A DNA stretch of 64,000 bases from contig NZ_KK073872.1 in NCBI RefSeq assembly GCF_000585335.1, positions 1,603,283-1,667,282 on the forward strand, written 5' to 3'. This document shows, one piece after another, positions 19,615 to 58,873 of this stretch (position 1 is the first letter of the stretch; every line of letters begins with the position of its first letter). Source of the stretch: Cloacibacillus evryensis DSM 19522 (lineage in GTDB: Bacteria; Synergistota; Synergistia; Synergistales; Synergistaceae). Under the pieces are notes generated by a model. That model was not told the origin of the DNA and ran no database searches. It worked only from the letters and a program-made list of their open reading frames with translations. The position numbers and the translations under genes are program-made.

Positions 19615-21951
19615 TTATTCCCCGCCGTTTCTCGCGTTTTCCAAAAGTTCATCGGCCCCGTCCTCATCGACGAGTATCTCGCGCGGCCTGGCCCCGTCCG
19701 CCGGTCCGACGATGCCCAACTGCTCCATCATGTCTATCAGTCTTGAGGCGCGCGAAAAGCCGACGCGCAGGCGGCGCTGCAGGCCGCTGGCCGAGGCGAT
19801 GCCCGTCGTCATCACCGTCTCGACGGCCTCTTCCAGAAGTTCGTCGTCGAAGGTGCCGCCGTTACCGCCCGCGGGACCGTTTCCCTGTGCCTCTATCTCA
19901 ATAAAGTCAGGCTCGCCGAAGGTGTTGGTCATGTATTTGAGCCACGCGGCGAGGATGCTTTCGTCTATCCACGGCGACTGTATGCGTATCGGCTTCGGGT
20001 GCTTCGTCGATGAAAAGAGCATGTCCCCCTTGCCGAGCAGCTTCTCCGCTCCCGCGCAGTCGATGATCGTGCGCGAGTCGGCGTTGCTGGGTAGCGTGAA
20101 GGCCACGCGCGCCGGGATGTTGGCCTTGATGAGGCCGGTGATGATGTTCACCGACGGCCTCTGTGTCGCGAGCATCAGGTGGATGCCGGTCGCGCGCGCC
20201 ATCTGCGCGAGGCGGCAGATGTACTCCTCCACCTCTTTCGCCGCCGTCATCATCAGGTCCGCGAGTTCGTCGACGACGATCACGATATGCGGCAGCCGGT
20301 CCTTTGGCAGCACCTTCTCGTTGTATCCTTCCAGGTTCCTCACGCGCATCTTCGCGAAGGTCGTATAGCGGCTCTCCATCTCGCGTATCAGCCAGGCCAG
20401 CGCCTGCACCGCCTTTTTGGGATCGGTCACCGGCGGCGTCAGCAGATGCGGCAGCTTGTCGTAGACGGCCATTTCGACGCGCTTGGGGTCGACGAGTATC
20501 ATGCGCAGCTCCTCGGGGGAGCGCTTTGAGCAGAGCCCGACGATGCAGGAATTGACGAAGACGCTCTTGCCGGAGCCTGTCGTGCCAGCCACCAGCAGAT
20601 GCGGCAGCTCCTCAAGGCCGACGACCATGGGGTCGCCGTTGACCGCGACGCCGAACGGCAGCGGCAGCGAGAGCTTCGCCTTTTTGAAGGCGTCGTCTTC
20701 GATCACGGTGCGCAGAGGGATGCCGCGGCGTTTGGGGTTCGGTATCTCGATGCCGACGTACGGTTTGCCGGGGATCGGAGCTTCGATGCGCAGGCTCGGG
20801 ACGGCCATCGCGAGCGCGATGTCGTTCGAGAGCGCGGCGACTTTGCTGACCTTTATGCCCGGAGCGAGCTGGATGCGGAACTGAATGACCGTCGGCCCGA
20901 CGAGTATCTCCGCGAGGCGCGACTCGATGCTGAACTGTTCGAGCGTATCGACTATCTTTTCGCCGAGCGGTTCGGCGCGCTCCTCGTCCATCTCACCGTC
21001 GCGGGACTCCTCCGGTCCGAAGAGTTCGATCGGCGGCGGGAATATCCCCTGTTTGATACGTCCGCCGGAGGAATCCCCCAGGCTGAAGTTGGGGTCCTGG
21101 ATCGTGGCGGGAGCCGTTCCCGCCGCCGCGATCCTGACGCTGTCAGGATCGTTATAATCAATGTTTTCCTCGTCGTTGTCCGAGCCGTCTTCGCTGATAT
21201 CGCCGTCTTCCTCGTCCCCGTACGCGTCCTCTTCTTCGGGGTCTTCGGAACGGTCGTCTTCGCAGGCGAAATAGTCGCCCTCGCCGCACTCCATGATGTT
21301 GGGAGCGCCCCTGTTTTTGCGGCGGCTCTCATAGCCGTATTCATTAAGCTCTTCTTTAAGCGTCTCCATTTTTTTCCTGCGACTGAAAGACGGCAATGCT
21401 ATTTTGGGCAGTTTAATATATGAGAATATATGAATATTGTAAAAAAGAAGAGTGAAATAGATCAGGAGAAGGCCGATGATCAAGGTCCCCAGGACTCCGG
21501 TCGTCTTATATACGGCGAGGCTCAGAAGATGGCCGAAAGCTCCCGCGGAAAGGCAGGGGAAGCGCAGCAGGTCCTCGCCGCCCGTCAGCCGGTTGAGCCC
21601 CAGCAGCAGCGAGGCGAGCAGAAAGACAAGCGCCGTTCCTAAGAATTGCCTGAAAAAGCACCTTACCTCCCGCGAGAAGAGGTAAGATAACGAAAGGTAA
21701 AGCACGAACAGGAGGGGAACGACGACGGAGCCGCCCACCGACGCCAGCAGCGAGGCGGCGATGCCCGCGCCGCCGTCGCCCGTCCACGGAGTGTAAAGCG
21801 AAGCGATGATGTAGAGGGTGAAGAGCATGACGATGATATTCGCGATCTTCACCGCTGATCCAATATTCGCGAAGGGCTCCGCCAGCCTCTCTCTGATGCT
21901 TTTAGAGGGAGCCTTGGCCGCCCTTCTCCTCATTGGCGCCTTTTCTCTCAT
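19615..21951 (-). CDS. ftsK: DNA translocase FtsK/SpoIIIE
   Basis: The 778-residue protein has about four N-terminal transmembrane helices (residues 20-180), a short acidic linker (about 230-300), the alpha and beta motor domains with Walker A GTTGSGKSVFVN and Walker B IVIVVDELADLM, and a C-terminal winged-helix gamma domain (ASGLQRRLRVGFSRASRL) that reads KOPS-like sites. It pumps chromosomal DNA through the division septum. The ATG at 21951 overlaps the tldD stop (ATGA) and has GGGAGG upstream. The linker is much shorter than in E. coli FtsK. Confidence 0.95.
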   Translation of the reverse strand: MREKAPMRRRAAKAPSKSIRERLAEPFANIGSAVKIANIIVMLFTLYIIASLYTPWTGDGGAGIAASLLASVGGSVVVPLLFVLYLSLSYLFSREVRCFFRQFLGTALVFLLASLLLGLNRLTGGEDLLRFPCLSAGAFGHLLSLAVYKTTGVLGTLIIGLLLIYFTLLFYNIHIFSYIKLPKIALPSFSRRKKMETLKEELNEYGYESRRKNRGAPNIMECGEGDYFACEDDRSEDPEEEDAYGDEEDGDISEDGSDNDEENIDYNDPDSVRIAAAGTAPATIQDPNFSLGDSSGGRIKQGIFPPPIELFGPEESRDGEMDEERAEPLGEKIVDTLEQFSIESRLAEILVGPTVIQFRIQLAPGIKVSKVAALSNDIALAMAVPSLRIEAPIPGKPYVGIEIPNPKRRGIPLRTVIEDDAFKKAKLSLPLPFGVAVNGDPMVVGLEELPHLLVAGTTGSGKSVFVNSCIVGLCSKRSPEELRMILVDPKRVEMAVYDKLPHLLTPPVTDPKKAVQALAWLIREMESRYTTFAKMRVRNLEGYNEKVLPKDRLPHIVIVVDELADLMMTAAKEVEEYICRLAQMARATGIHLMLATQRPSVNIITGLIKANIPARVAFTLPSNADSRTIIDCAGAEKLLGKGDMLFSSTKHPKPIRIQSPWIDESILAAWLKYMTNTFGEPDFIEIEAQGNGPAGGNGGTFDDELLEEAVETVMTTGIASASGLQRRLRVGFSRASRLIDMMEQLGIVGPADGARPREILVDEDGADELLENARNGGE

Positions 21952-24671: not shown

Positions 24672-24700
24672 TTGACATTAAGAGAAGTTGGGGGTATAAA
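24672..24700 (+). promoter_or_regulatory. Strong promoter of the serine biosynthesis operon
   Basis: TTGACA (24672-24677) and TATAAA (24695-24700) are separated by 17 bp, close to the sigma-70 consensus. Transcription would start near 24707, about 30 nt before the leader peptide ATG. Confidence 0.8.
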
Positions 24701-24738
24701 TGTTAGCTAATTAAACTTTGAGTCAAAGGAGAGGGCAA

Positions 24739-24843
24739 ATGAACTGTAAAACTATTTCAAAATCAGTGTCGTCATCCTCTCTCTCCTCCGGCCTTTCGTC
24801 GTGTGGATGGTCATCGCCGCGCCGCCGGTCTCAAAGCGAATAA
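24739..24843 (+). CDS. Serine-rich leader peptide of the serine operon attenuator
   Basis: The ATG at 24739, after AAAGGAGAGGG, opens 34 codons ending at TAA 24841-24843. Fourteen of the 34 residues are serine, written mostly as TCN codons plus one AGC, including runs of four, two, two and two. The gene ends just before an antiterminator/terminator pair and upstream of serine biosynthesis genes. In classic attenuation (his, leu, thr, trp leaders) such a peptide measures the charged tRNA of the operon's end product; here that is seryl-tRNA. The product itself has no other likely role. The frame is too short and odd in composition to be an ordinary protein. Confidence 0.88.
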   Translation: MNCKTISKSVSSSSLSSGLSSCGWSSPRRRSQSE

Positions 24844-24897
24844 CACTGATGTTGTAAGCATATCCGCGCAAATAACAGAGGTAACGTTTTGAGATCG
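24826..24897 (+). promoter_or_regulatory. Antiterminator hairpin of the serine attenuator
   Basis: Bases 24826-24838 (CGGTCTCAAAGCG, in the last codons of the leader) can pair with 24885-24897 (CGTTTTGAGATCG) over 13 bp with two G-T pairs. This captures the whole 5' core of the terminator arm, so the two structures exclude each other. A ribosome stalled at the serine runs leaves 24826-24838 free, so the antiterminator forms. A ribosome reaching the stop covers it, so the terminator forms. An early element, CTTTGAG at 24716-24722, can also pair with CTCAAAG at 24830-24836. Confidence 0.82.
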
Positions 24898-24928
24898 AAG
24901 GGCGTCTTTCGGTCTCTTTTTATTTTTT
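24891..24928 (+). terminator. Attenuator terminator upstream of the serine operon
   Basis: GAGATCGAA and TTCGGTCTC form a 9-bp stem (one G-T pair) around GGGCGTCT, followed by five T, A and six T. It lies between the leader peptide and the first structural gene, whose ribosome-binding site GGAGG starts 8 nt later. Confidence 0.88.
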
Positions 24929-24948
24929 ATATACTGGAGGTCTTATTG

Positions 24949-26091
24949 TTGAAGAAAAAGTACCTGCTTACTCCCGGGCCCGTCGAGGCGCCGCAGAGCG
25001 TTCTTGAGGCGGCTTCCCGCCAGCTTATGAGCCACAGGTGCGCCGAGTTCTCCGAACTTTTTAAGGGGATCGCCGGCAAACTGCATGCGCTTTTGGAGAG
25101 CGATTCCCCCGTCGTCATACTCCCCTCGTCGGGTACCGGCGCGCTTGAATGTGCCGCCGTGAACTTCCTCCGCCGCGGAGATAAATTTATATCACTGTCC
25201 TGCGGCGTCTTCGGCGACCGTTTCCGCGAGATCGCCGCGCGCACGGGGGCCCGCGGCGTATATGTCGACGCGGAGGCTGGGAGCGCGCCGTCGCCGGCGG
25301 CAGCGGCTGCGGCCCTGCGCGAAAATCCCGACGCGCGCGCCATACTCGTCACCCACAACGAGACCTCGACCGGCGTCACCGTTCCGGTAAGGGAGATCAT
25401 AGACGCGCTTCCCGCGGCGGGCCGTCCGCTGATCTTAGTCGACGGCGTGAGCTCCGTCGGGGCGATCGAGTGCCTGCCGGAAAAATGGGGCGCGGATGTG
25501 CTCTGCACCGCCTCGCAGAAGGGGCTGATGACGCCGCCCGGGCTTGGTTTCGTCTGGCTGTCCGAACGGGCGCTCGCCGCGCTGCCGGAGCGGGAATGCC
25601 CCAGCTATTACTTTGACCTGAAGCTGCATTTGAAGAACATGGGGCCGGGATCATACGCCAACCCCTACACGCCGCCGGTATCGCTCTACTACGCGCTCAA
25701 CGCCGCTCTGGACGTCATCCTCGCCGACGGCGCGCGGGCGTGGTTCGCGAAGCGCAGGCTGTACGCCGACGCTTTCGCGGCCGCTCTGGAAGAGCTCGGC
25801 TATGAGCTGCTCGTGACGGATAAGAAGCTGCGCTCGGCCGGCGTCACCGCCTTTTCCGCGCCGAACGGCGCGAGCGAGGCCGTGAGAAAGAGCCTCTCCG
25901 CCGAAGGTTTTGAGACGGCCGGCGGCCAGGGGGCCTTGAAGGGAAAGCTGATCCGCGCTTCGCACTACAGCGACTGGGAGATCGGCGAGATGGAGGATAT
26001 TCTTAGAGCCTTTGCCGGAGCGATCGGCAAAGATAGCGATGAAAATTACCTTAGAACTGCCCGAAAAATTTTTAAGACAGATAAAAGATAG
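24949..26091 (+). CDS. Class V aminotransferase, likely phosphoserine aminotransferase (SerC role)
   Basis: The 380-residue PLP enzyme is of the serine-pyruvate/alanine-glyoxylate aminotransferase branch: LLTPGPVEAP at the start, SSGTGALECA phosphate-binding loop, LVDGVSSVGA with the PLP aspartate, and TASQKGLMTPPG with Schiff-base K191. In anaerobes such enzymes next to serA serve as SerC, converting 3-phosphohydroxypyruvate to phosphoserine. I place the start at TTG 24949, 8 nt after GGAGG; the frame is open back to 24889 but that part is the attenuator terminator. TTG at 24946 is the alternative. Expression should depend on the upstream leader. Confidence 0.85.
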   Translation: MKKKYLLTPGPVEAPQSVLEAASRQLMSHRCAEFSELFKGIAGKLHALLESDSPVVILPSSGTGALECAAVNFLRRGDKFISLSCGVFGDRFREIAARTGARGVYVDAEAGSAPSPAAAAAALRENPDARAILVTHNETSTGVTVPVREIIDALPAAGRPLILVDGVSSVGAIECLPEKWGADVLCTASQKGLMTPPGLGFVWLSERALAALPERECPSYYFDLKLHLKNMGPGSYANPYTPPVSLYYALNAALDVILADGARAWFAKRRLYADAFAAALEELGYELLVTDKKLRSAGVTAFSAPNGASEAVRKSLSAEGFETAGGQGALKGKLIRASHYSDWEIGEMEDILRAFAGAIGKDSDENYLRTARKIFKTDKR

Positions 26092-26109
26092 ATGATTGGA
26101 GAGAGCGTG

Positions 26110-27756
26110 ATGGACAGGAAATGGAAGATACTTGTCACGGAAAAGGTCGGCGAGGCGGGGCTTGATATATTCAGGAACGCGCCGGACGTCGAGCTTGACG
26201 TGGAAATAGGGCTTGCCGAAGAGGAACTGATCGCGAAACTGCCGGCTTATGACGGCATACTGACGCGCAGCGGCACGACGATGGACGAAAGGAAGATCGA
26301 GGCCGGCAAAAACCTTAAAGTTATCGGCCGCGCCGGCGTCGGAGTCGACAACATCGACCTTCCCGCCGCGAGCAGGCAGGGCATCATCGTAATAAACGCG
26401 CCTAGCGGCAACACGCTCGCGGCGACGGAGCTGACGATGGCCAATATGCTTGCCGTCGTGCGCCATGTGCCTCAGGCCTGCAGTTCGCTTCACAGGGGCA
26501 AATGGGACCGCAACCGTTTCACGGGCTGCCAGCTCAGCGGGCGGAAGCTTCTCATTATCGGCCTCGGACGCATCGGCAGCGAGGTCGCGAAGCGCGCGCG
26601 GGCCTTCGGCATGGAGGTCATCGCCTACGATCCCTACATACCGCAGAAAAAGGCCGAGTCGCTGCATGTGGAGCTTGTGAGCGACCTTGAAGGAGCGGTT
26701 TCGCTCGCCGACGTCGTGACGATACACACGCCGCTGACTCAGGAGACCTCGGACATGATCGACGCGGACATGCTGCGCGCCTTCAAACATGGCGCCTATC
26801 TCGTCAACTGCGCGCGCGGCGGCATCGTCGACGAGGCGGCGGTGGCGGAGGCTGTGCGCGACGGACGGCTCTCCGGCTTTGCCACCGACGTTTTCAGCGC
26901 CGAGCCGCTGGCGGCGGGCCATCCCTTCCTCGCCGAGGACATCGCGGAGCGGATCGTGATCACGCCTCACATCGGTGCGAACACAGTCGAGGCCCAGTCC
27001 GAGGTCTCGCGCATCGCGGCGCAGAACATGCTGATGGTGCTTCGCGGCGAACCCTATTCGCACGCGGTGAACCTTCCGTTTATAGAGCAGGCGCTGAACG
27101 GCGACCAGCGGATGTATCTCGCCCTTTCGCGCAAGATAGGCGTTCTCGCGGCCAAGCTGGCTCAAGTGCGCGGGGCGGCCGCCCACAACTGCCATGTGAC
27201 GCTGCGCGGCGCGCTCTTTGAGGATGAGGAAAAACGCGTCGCAAACCAACTGCGCCCCTACACGATAGCCGTCCTCAAGGGGATGCTCGAGGTGAGCGTC
27301 GGCTCTTCCGTCACCTATATGATCGCCCCGCTGCTCGCGAAAGACCGTCATATATCGATAGACGAGAGCTGCGGCGAGTCAAAGACCTACAAGAACACTA
27401 TCGAGGTCGAGCTTGAAACGGAAAAGGGTTCCGTCTCGCTGCTGGCGACGATCACCGAAGAGGGACGCCAGCGCATCGTCCGCGTCAATGATTATTGGGT
27501 GGACTTTGTGCCGAGCGGCAAACTGCTCATCTTCCAGAACCACGACCGCCCCGGGGTCATCGGCAAGATCGGCAGCGTCCTTGGCGCGGCTGACGTCAAT
27601 ATCGCGAACTTTGCCCTCGGACGCAAGGAGGGCAGCGGCCTCGCGCTCGGCGCGCTTGAAATAGACGGCGAGACTGACGACAGGCTGCGCGGCGAACTTG
27701 TGAAGAGCGGCGATATGGTCTGGGTGACGACGGTCGATTTTACAAAGGCCGGGTAG
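26110..27756 (+). CDS. serA: D-3-phosphoglycerate dehydrogenase
   Basis: The 548-residue enzyme oxidises 3-phosphoglycerate to 3-phosphohydroxypyruvate, the first step of serine synthesis. It has the D-2-hydroxyacid dehydrogenase fold with NAD-binding GLGRIGSEVAKRA, the catalytic arginine region NCARGGIVDE and the catalytic ITPHIGANT histidine, then an allosteric substrate-binding domain and a C-terminal ACT domain (QNHDRPGVIGKIGSVL). The ACT domain suggests feedback inhibition by serine as a second layer of control. The ATG at 26110 has TTGGAGAGA upstream, better than the ATG at 26092 that abuts the previous stop. Confidence 0.95.
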   Translation: MDRKWKILVTEKVGEAGLDIFRNAPDVELDVEIGLAEEELIAKLPAYDGILTRSGTTMDERKIEAGKNLKVIGRAGVGVDNIDLPAASRQGIIVINAPSGNTLAATELTMANMLAVVRHVPQACSSLHRGKWDRNRFTGCQLSGRKLLIIGLGRIGSEVAKRARAFGMEVIAYDPYIPQKKAESLHVELVSDLEGAVSLADVVTIHTPLTQETSDMIDADMLRAFKHGAYLVNCARGGIVDEAAVAEAVRDGRLSGFATDVFSAEPLAAGHPFLAEDIAERIVITPHIGANTVEAQSEVSRIAAQNMLMVLRGEPYSHAVNLPFIEQALNGDQRMYLALSRKIGVLAAKLAQVRGAAAHNCHVTLRGALFEDEEKRVANQLRPYTIAVLKGMLEVSVGSSVTYMIAPLLAKDRHISIDESCGESKTYKNTIEVELETEKGSVSLLATITEEGRQRIVRVNDYWVDFVPSGKLLIFQNHDRPGVIGKIGSVLGAADVNIANFALGRKEGSGLALGALEIDGETDDRLRGELVKSGDMVWVTTVDFTKAG

Positions 27757-27760
27757 ACAG

Positions 27761-28405
27761 ATGAGATTTTTTGTGATCAGGCACGGGGAGACGGCGTGGA
27801 ACGTCGCGGGACGTTTTCAGGGGCAGCAGGACACTGAACTCAACGAAAAGGGGCTGGCGCAGGCGGAGCTGCTGGGTGAGCGGCTTGCCGGCCATAGGTT
27901 TGAGGCGGTGCTGACGAGCCCGCTGGCGCGCGCGAAGGTTACCGCCGAGCGCGCCTCGGCGCGGTGCGAGTGCGGAGAGTTTTTAACGGTGGGGGCGCTG
28001 ACCGAGATAAACCACGGCGACTGGGAGGGACGCCTCGCCGACGAGATCGCGGCTGAATGGCCCGAAGAGCTCCGCAAATGGCACGTCGCCCCTGAAACGG
28101 TGACGATGCCGGGAGCGGGCGGCGAGAATCTCGCCGATATCATGCGCCGCGCCGCGCCAGCCGTGGACGGGGCCGCGAAAAGATACAAGGGGGACGTGCT
28201 GCTCGCCTCGCACGACGCGGTGATCAAAGTGCTGCTCTGCTACTGGCTCGGCGCGCCTCTTTCAAGTTTCTTCCGTTTCCAGGTGCCTAACTGCAGCATC
28301 ACGGTCGTCGAAATCCAAGAAGGTTCCGCGCCGAGGATGCTTTTGATGGGAGACGCCGCGCACCTCGGCGATCCCTTCGAGCGCCCGGAACAGAAGGGGC
28401 TGTAG
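27761..28405 (+). CDS. Histidine phosphatase (PGM-like), probable phosphoserine phosphatase
   Basis: The 214-residue protein opens with the RHGETAWN motif carrying the phospho-accepting histidine and has the second catalytic histidine in LLASHDAVIKVLL. It starts 4 nt after serA. The cofactor-dependent phosphoglycerate mutase superfamily includes the metal-independent phosphoserine phosphatases PspA/PspB of Hydrogenobacter. With an aminotransferase and serA just upstream and no HAD-type serB seen, phosphoserine to serine is the most economical role. Alpha-ribazole phosphatase (CobC) or a general sugar phosphatase are alternatives. Confidence 0.78.
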   Translation: MRFFVIRHGETAWNVAGRFQGQQDTELNEKGLAQAELLGERLAGHRFEAVLTSPLARAKVTAERASARCECGEFLTVGALTEINHGDWEGRLADEIAAEWPEELRKWHVAPETVTMPGAGGENLADIMRRAAPAVDGAAKRYKGDVLLASHDAVIKVLLCYWLGAPLSSFFRFQVPNCSITVVEIQEGSAPRMLLMGDAAHLGDPFERPEQKGL

Positions 28406-58192: not shown

Positions 58193-58873
58193 GCCGCGTG
58201 CCTCACTTCCAAAGCCACCAAATTTTGTGCAAAGTATATTCTATCACAAAAGCATCACAGCCGTCATTAATTTTGACGACGCGAGCAGGGCAAACGCATC
58301 AAGAAAGGTCAGGTAGAAGATAAACTGCGATTTACCGCTCTGCCCTTCCGTCGCTCCGGCCTCCGAGCCGGAGCCGAGAGTCGTCGGGTTTGGCTTTGCC
58401 CTTTAAAAGGCTCCCTCGCCGAGGGAGCTCCCCGCGAAGCGGGGTGAGGGAGAGGTGCGCCCGGCATGCACATAAACTAGGCGGTGTAAGTCCGCTACAG
58501 GCATTGCAGTGTGAACTGTTAGCCAAAGGCAAGGGTGTCCATCGTGAGGTGGAATCTGAAGGAAGCCGGAGGCAAAACCTCGGTCCGACGAACAGGAACC
58601 GCATGTGAGGCATTATGGGACGGACGAGTCTACCCCCCAAGACAAAGTCCTACACTGCGCGAATCCCATGGTGTAAATGCGGCGGATATATGAGGAGAAA
58701 GTTTATGTGCTTACTCGGGGAGATCTTGCGGGGGCTTAACCTGAGTGCAATCCACCCAGAGATGGATGGATGAACCGCAAGAAGTCAGCAGAGGCCATAG
58801 TACTGGTGAGAGAAAAAAAACATCAGGAAGGGCCGAACGGTAACAAACTTCTCAGACGAAAGAAGGTCGGGCA

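Follow-up and report, generated by a model that had tools for sequence, protein, structure and literature searches.

Ribosome-mediated transcription attenuators of the histidine, tryptophan, leucine, threonine and phenylalanine operons are represented in Rfam by the families RF00514, RF00513, RF00512, RF00506 and RF01859, respectively. Their leaders combine a short open reading frame (ORF) rich in codons for the product of the operon with mutually exclusive antiterminator and terminator helices, the 5' arm of the antiterminator lying under the end of the ORF. RF00514 is documented as the histidine leader (PMC9413887). The leader described here shares this design and precedes an aminotransferase–serA–phosphatase operon, but differs from these leaders in its serine codons, in its occurrence in the phylum Synergistota and in matching no Rfam family. 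In comparison with trp-type leaders, it also lacks a clear protector (1:2) hairpin in the clade of the sequence studied, whereas relatives in one family (f9) have one.

Several other systems respond to serine or lie ahead of serine genes. The serine T-box that precedes serA in Firmicutes (Paenibacillus polymyxa; PMC8002221) has the same signal, the same target gene and the same mode of control by transcription antitermination, but there the RNA binds the tRNA directly through one specifier codon and no leader peptide is translated. The serC element of α-proteobacteria (RF00517; PMC1273637) likewise stands ahead of a serine operon, serC–serA in that case, but it is a short element of two stems that has been suggested to act on translation, and neither serine binding nor a leader peptide has been shown for it. 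Neither RF00517 nor any other Rfam family gave a covariance-model match at the leader (Rfam 15). Leader ORFs of cys operons in Actinobacteria (PMC1262725) resemble the present case in carrying codons for a serine-derived amino acid, cysteine, but are without a terminator or alternative hairpins. The SinR serine-codon sensor of Bacillus subtilis (PMC3862929) also reports serine shortage through slow translation of UCN codons, but it affects translation of its own gene without an RNA switch or a leader.

The survey of Actinobacteria reports Trp, Leu and Cys leaders and none for serine operons (PMC1262725), and a wide survey of terminators makes no mention of serine (PMC2965389). A serine-codon leader attenuator was not found in Rfam or in the openly licensed full-text literature searched, in keeping with a preliminary description of this DNA that knew of none in the phylum; an earlier description elsewhere is possible. 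The mechanism itself is textbook material, and to judge from Rfam and the literature covered, serine had been missing among the amino acids with ribosome-mediated attenuators.

The window, i.e. the whole 64-kb stretch of DNA that was analysed, contains the following features of the leader and its operon.

24672–24700, + strand: promoter TTGACA-17-TATAAA, read directly (TTGACA at 24672–24677, TATAAA at 24695–24700).
24727–24735, + strand: Shine–Dalgarno sequence AGGAGAGGG of the leader ORF, read directly.
24739–24843, + strand: leader peptide ORF MNCKTISKSVSSSSLSSGLSSCGWSSPRRRSQSE, ATG to TAA, 34 codons with 14 Ser, read directly and kept in 30 genera.
24757–24816, + strand: sensor stretch, Ser codons 7–26, holding 12 Ser codons upstream of the antiterminator arm, from stall-position folding.
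24826–24838, + strand: antiterminator 5' arm, overlapping leader codons 30–34, from folding and near-clade covariation.
24885–24897, + strand: antiterminator 3' arm, its last 7 nt shared with the terminator 5' arm, from folding and near-clade covariation.
24891–24928, + strand: intrinsic terminator, stem 24891–24901/24906–24916 and T-tract 24917–24928, read directly and conserved in relatives.
24936–24940, + strand: GGAGG ribosome-binding site of the first structural gene, which has a TTG start codon at 24949.
24949–26091, + strand: class V aminotransferase (AGT family), likely in the serine pathway, from profile class and synteny.
26092–27756, + strand: serA, phosphoglycerate dehydrogenase, TIGR01327 above cut-off.
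27761–28405, + strand: histidine-phosphatase-family protein, likely a phosphoserine phosphatase (PspA-like, below cut-off), from a profile match and synteny.

The promoter, the ribosome-binding site and the 34-codon ORF with 14 Ser codons given in the preliminary description are all present on direct reading. The 13-bp antiterminator that it proposed (24826–24838 with 24885–24897, two of the pairs being G·U) is recovered in the sequence and on folding, with the 5' arm 3–15 nt ahead of the leader stop as claimed; the terminator stem, given there as 9 bp, has 11 pairs. Because 24891–24897 is used by both helices, the antiterminator and the terminator are mutually exclusive. The final two Ser codons (31 and 33) fall within the antiterminator arm, where a stalled ribosome would favour termination, and are therefore unable to serve as sensor codons, so that the effective sensor consists of the 12 Ser codons upstream. 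The fold of 24707–24948 is more stable than that of dinucleotide shuffles (z −2.66), and the end of the terminator is about 20 nt from the start of the operon. The minimum-energy fold pairs the ribosome-binding site of the leader itself (24728–24734) with the run of Ser codons (24774–24780).

The order aminotransferase–serA–phosphatase is kept in relatives, a synteny that suggests roles for the aminotransferase and the phosphatase; with serA, these two would make up the phosphorylated serine pathway. An operon that makes the sensed amino acid is expected downstream of an attenuator, and here it is indicated by serA, which scores above the cut-off.

The leader very probably works by classical ribosome-mediated transcription attenuation, with seryl-tRNA as the signal and the operon of the phosphorylated serine pathway as the target. 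Transcription would start just after 24700 and a ribosome would initiate on the 34-codon leader. When charged Ser-tRNA is scarce the ribosome would stall in the Ser run (codons 7–21) and leave 24826–24838 free to pair with 24885–24897, which would remove the 5' arm of the terminator; with the antiterminator formed, RNA polymerase would continue into the aminotransferase, serA and phosphatase genes. When Ser-tRNA is plentiful the ribosome would reach codons 28 to stop and cover 24826–24838, the terminator (24891–24916) would form and transcription would halt at about 24928. Transcription termination, ribosome stalling and the response to serine are elements of this scheme that we infer. The earlier suggestion that charged seryl-tRNA controls serine synthesis is supported by conservation, by covariation in the near clade and by stall-position folding, which gave the predicted switch, and all of the features tested other than the 1:2 hairpin fit a classical amino-acid attenuator.

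A comparison of the folds of both states had been proposed in the preliminary description, and the predicted switch was obtained by stall-position folding of the window transcript with a ribosome footprint of ∼30 nt in an equilibrium model. When one of Ser codons 7–21 occupies the A site, the probability of the antiterminator is 0.66–0.99 and that of the terminator is 0.00–0.34. A ribosome at codons 25–26 gives an intermediate antiterminator probability, and at all positions from codon 28 through the stop codon the terminator has a probability of 1.00. On the transcript free of ribosomes the antiterminator prevails (0.80), and an untranslated leader should therefore read through in the clade of the window. 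For most other families the finished terminator is predicted to be the stronger structure, so that the order of formation must matter. Stall-position folding of all relatives, both at equilibrium and with truncated transcripts, was informative for the window, for genera g8/g11, g23 and g30 and for parts of families f1, f2 and f9, but not for most other families; the antiterminator was resolved by scanning or by stall folding neither in families f3, f5 and f6 nor in part of f10.

Covariation supports the antiterminator in the near clade, where the helix is 95% paired among 11 distinct sequences (genera g1, g8, g9, g11, g14, g20 and g21). For this comparison the arms were registered by hand with one bulged base removed, MAFFT having misregistered one bulge. 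Both partners are exchanged in two pairs (A-U/G-C and U-A/C-G), and one-sided changes to wobble pairs occur in others; arms slid out of register are 45–59% paired, and none of 1000 shuffles reaches the observed value. The terminator is conserved with compensatory changes (RNAalifold). A generic helix scan found a clear antiterminator (z below −2) in 23 of 68 relatives, and with this yield was set aside as order-wide proof.

The preliminary description had a terminating ribosome hide the 5' arm of the antiterminator. This agrees with the geometry of the window, but the distance from stop to stem is not conserved in relatives: in most leaders of genus g8 the stop lies 24–40 nt beyond the arm. 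Masking by a translating, rather than strictly by a terminating, ribosome is therefore the general feature. The 1:2 hairpin also varies, the fold z value of the ORF being about +0.2 to +0.7 in genus g1 and −2.7 to −6.2 in family f9, with a mean over genera of −1.5. The f9 leaders carry a long 1:2 hairpin within the ORF and with it the third element of a trp-type leader; none is clear in the window's own genus.

A search for Ser-rich leaders and their pairings upstream of serA in relatives had been put forward as a means of refuting the proposal. Among 188 genomes of the phylum, of which 70 have an ortholog of the aminotransferase and 87 have serA, it returned 70 leaders from 30 genera, all of the order Synergistales and all directly upstream of the orthologous operon or of serA, with the pairing of the near-clade antiterminator described above. 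Where the aminotransferase is kept, the leader ORF precedes it (families f1, f2, f3, f5, f6, f8 and f10); where it is absent, the leader stands directly before serA (L105–L115, from one further f1 genus and from f3, f7 and f9). A terminator was detected by script in 68 of the 70 leaders, mostly close to the first gene, and a promoter-like site scoring at least 9 lies ahead of the leader in 60 of 64 relatives, compared with 7.5% of shuffled regions. Where the upstream DNA was readable, no such leader was seen in the early-branching outgroup family f11 (L086–L088 and L116) or at homologs from Elusimicrobia, Omnitrophota and others (L093–L100).

The leader has been lost in several relatives with reduced genomes (L012, L018 and L101–L104). 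In L017 (genome G024) the terminator and an antiterminator-like repeat remain upstream of the aminotransferase and the Ser-rich ORF is gone, an arrangement that looks like an attenuator in decay in a small genome. The attenuator would be a serine-sensing device conserved across an order of little-studied anaerobes, extending leader-peptide attenuation well beyond Proteobacteria, Actinobacteria and Firmicutes, and the leader ORF and terminator provide an annotation handle with which serine operons in Synergistota can be found or checked.

The number of Ser codons was rejected as proof in itself. The window holds 11 ORFs of 14–60 codons that are preceded by a Shine–Dalgarno sequence and contain at least eight Ser, and because of these other Ser-rich ORFs Ser richness alone is not significant; conservation decides. 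One ORF antisense to ftsK (21161–21274; 37 codons, 16 Ser) is Ser-rich by chance and serves well as a negative control. Ser makes up 25.6% of the residues in the leader frame versus 7.5% out of frame in the same DNA and is higher in frame in 30 of 30 genera, a comparison that is biased since the ORFs were picked by their Ser count. A less biased comparison, made within 11 groups of closely related leaders, shows the most differences at codon position 3 (0.44, versus 0.35 and 0.33 at positions 1 and 2), and Ser is the most retained aligned residue (57%), with different codons used in 38% of the retained pairs. The Shine–Dalgarno sequence, the variation at third positions and the synonymous substitutions indirectly indicate that the leader ORF is translated.

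Relative to neighbouring genes, UCN is favoured over AGY among the Ser codons of the leaders in 28 of 30 genera, the AGY share being 14% in leaders versus 31% in neighbouring genes (Wilcoxon p = 3 × 10−6, with genera that are not independent). In ribosome profiling of serine-starved B. subtilis, ribosomes stalled at UCN and Cys codons but not at AGY codons (PMC3862929); the preference of the leaders is as these data would predict. With six Ser codons read by several tRNAs, the leaders offer a natural test of selective-charging theory. Ahead of the Ser run, the leaders of many genera (L044, L053, L061, L073 and L074 among them) encode a Gly-(Ile/Met/Thr)-Gly motif whose third codon positions vary.

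Three explanations other than attenuation by seryl-tRNA were weighed. A serine T-box riboswitch that binds tRNA, like that of the serA leaders of Firmicutes, would account for the target gene and for an intrinsic terminator in the leader (PMC8002221). However, no T-box model matches anywhere in the window at the gathering score or in the region at E values up to 5, and the leader has a conserved translated ORF in place of a Stem I specifier and a T-box-like sequence; this explanation is contradicted and retains practically no probability. The ORF could instead encode a small protein that has nothing to do with the operon and be followed by a terminator of its own, or it could be a product of chance, given that Ser-rich ORFs are common at such composition, with the 11 in the window. 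This is extremely improbable for an intergenic ORF found in the same place in 30 genera, in which mainly codon identity and not peptide sequence is kept and which is accompanied by a covarying antiterminator; moreover, the T-tract is so close to the start codon of the operon (∼20 nt) that transcription must enter the operon by read-through. Another way in which leader peptides ahead of operons can act is arrest of the nascent peptide in answer to a ligand, with no part played by tRNA charging, and the glycine-flanked motif before the Ser run in many genera could be read in this way. The peptides nevertheless diverge widely beyond their Ser, Gly and Cys content, Ser positions exchange synonymous codons and the UCN preference points to tRNA charging, which makes such an arrest sensor very unlikely. 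Elsewhere in the window, two Rfam group II intron domains (RF02001 and RF01998) are matched at 58538–58833 on the + strand.

Seryl-tRNA attenuation thus remains the preferred reading, and a further variant of it concerns which tRNAs are gauged. Sensing of more than one amino acid is known from the ilv and thr leaders, and the same attenuator could be multivalent, sensing charged tRNAs for Ser together with those for serine-derived Cys and Gly. Gly (z 5.6) and Cys (z 4.9) codons exceed a composition-preserving shuffle with Ser codons removed, retention of Gly between relatives nearly equals that of Ser, with synonymous variation, and the stall positions that lower the terminator probability in f9 and g8/g11 fall on mixed Ser, Cys and Gly codons. 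Gly codons also amount to 7.9% in genomes that lack glyA versus 13.7% in others. Against this, Phe codons are equally enriched (z 5.6, all leaders, composition-matched shuffle) with no obvious rationale, Trp codons are not enriched and the window's own leader has only two Gly and two Cys. The association of glyA with Gly codons is not significant when phylogeny is considered (PGLS t 0.3 at the best-fitting setting, simulated p 0.14), Cys codons are not associated with cysK, and codon positions of high and low sequestration show no difference favouring Cys or Gly. A multivalent sensor is accordingly possible but unlikely. The 'serine-specific' label of the preliminary description is perhaps too narrow, as Cys and Gly codons are also enriched.

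It is similarly unlikely that one leader gauges Ser, Cys and Gly tRNA charging as a measure of the total demand on the serine branch, with lineages without glyA retuned toward serine alone. The gene glyA (serine hydroxymethyltransferase) is absent from the near-complete genome of the window and present in all 14 control genomes; it is also absent from several related genera that bear the leader. In the same genome, the stretches upstream of serS and cysK, judged by eye, contain no leader-like arrangement. The best candidates for multivalent sensing are the leaders L112–L115 of family f9, in which a very stable 1:2 hairpin is found with a mix of Ser, Cys, Gly and Trp codons.
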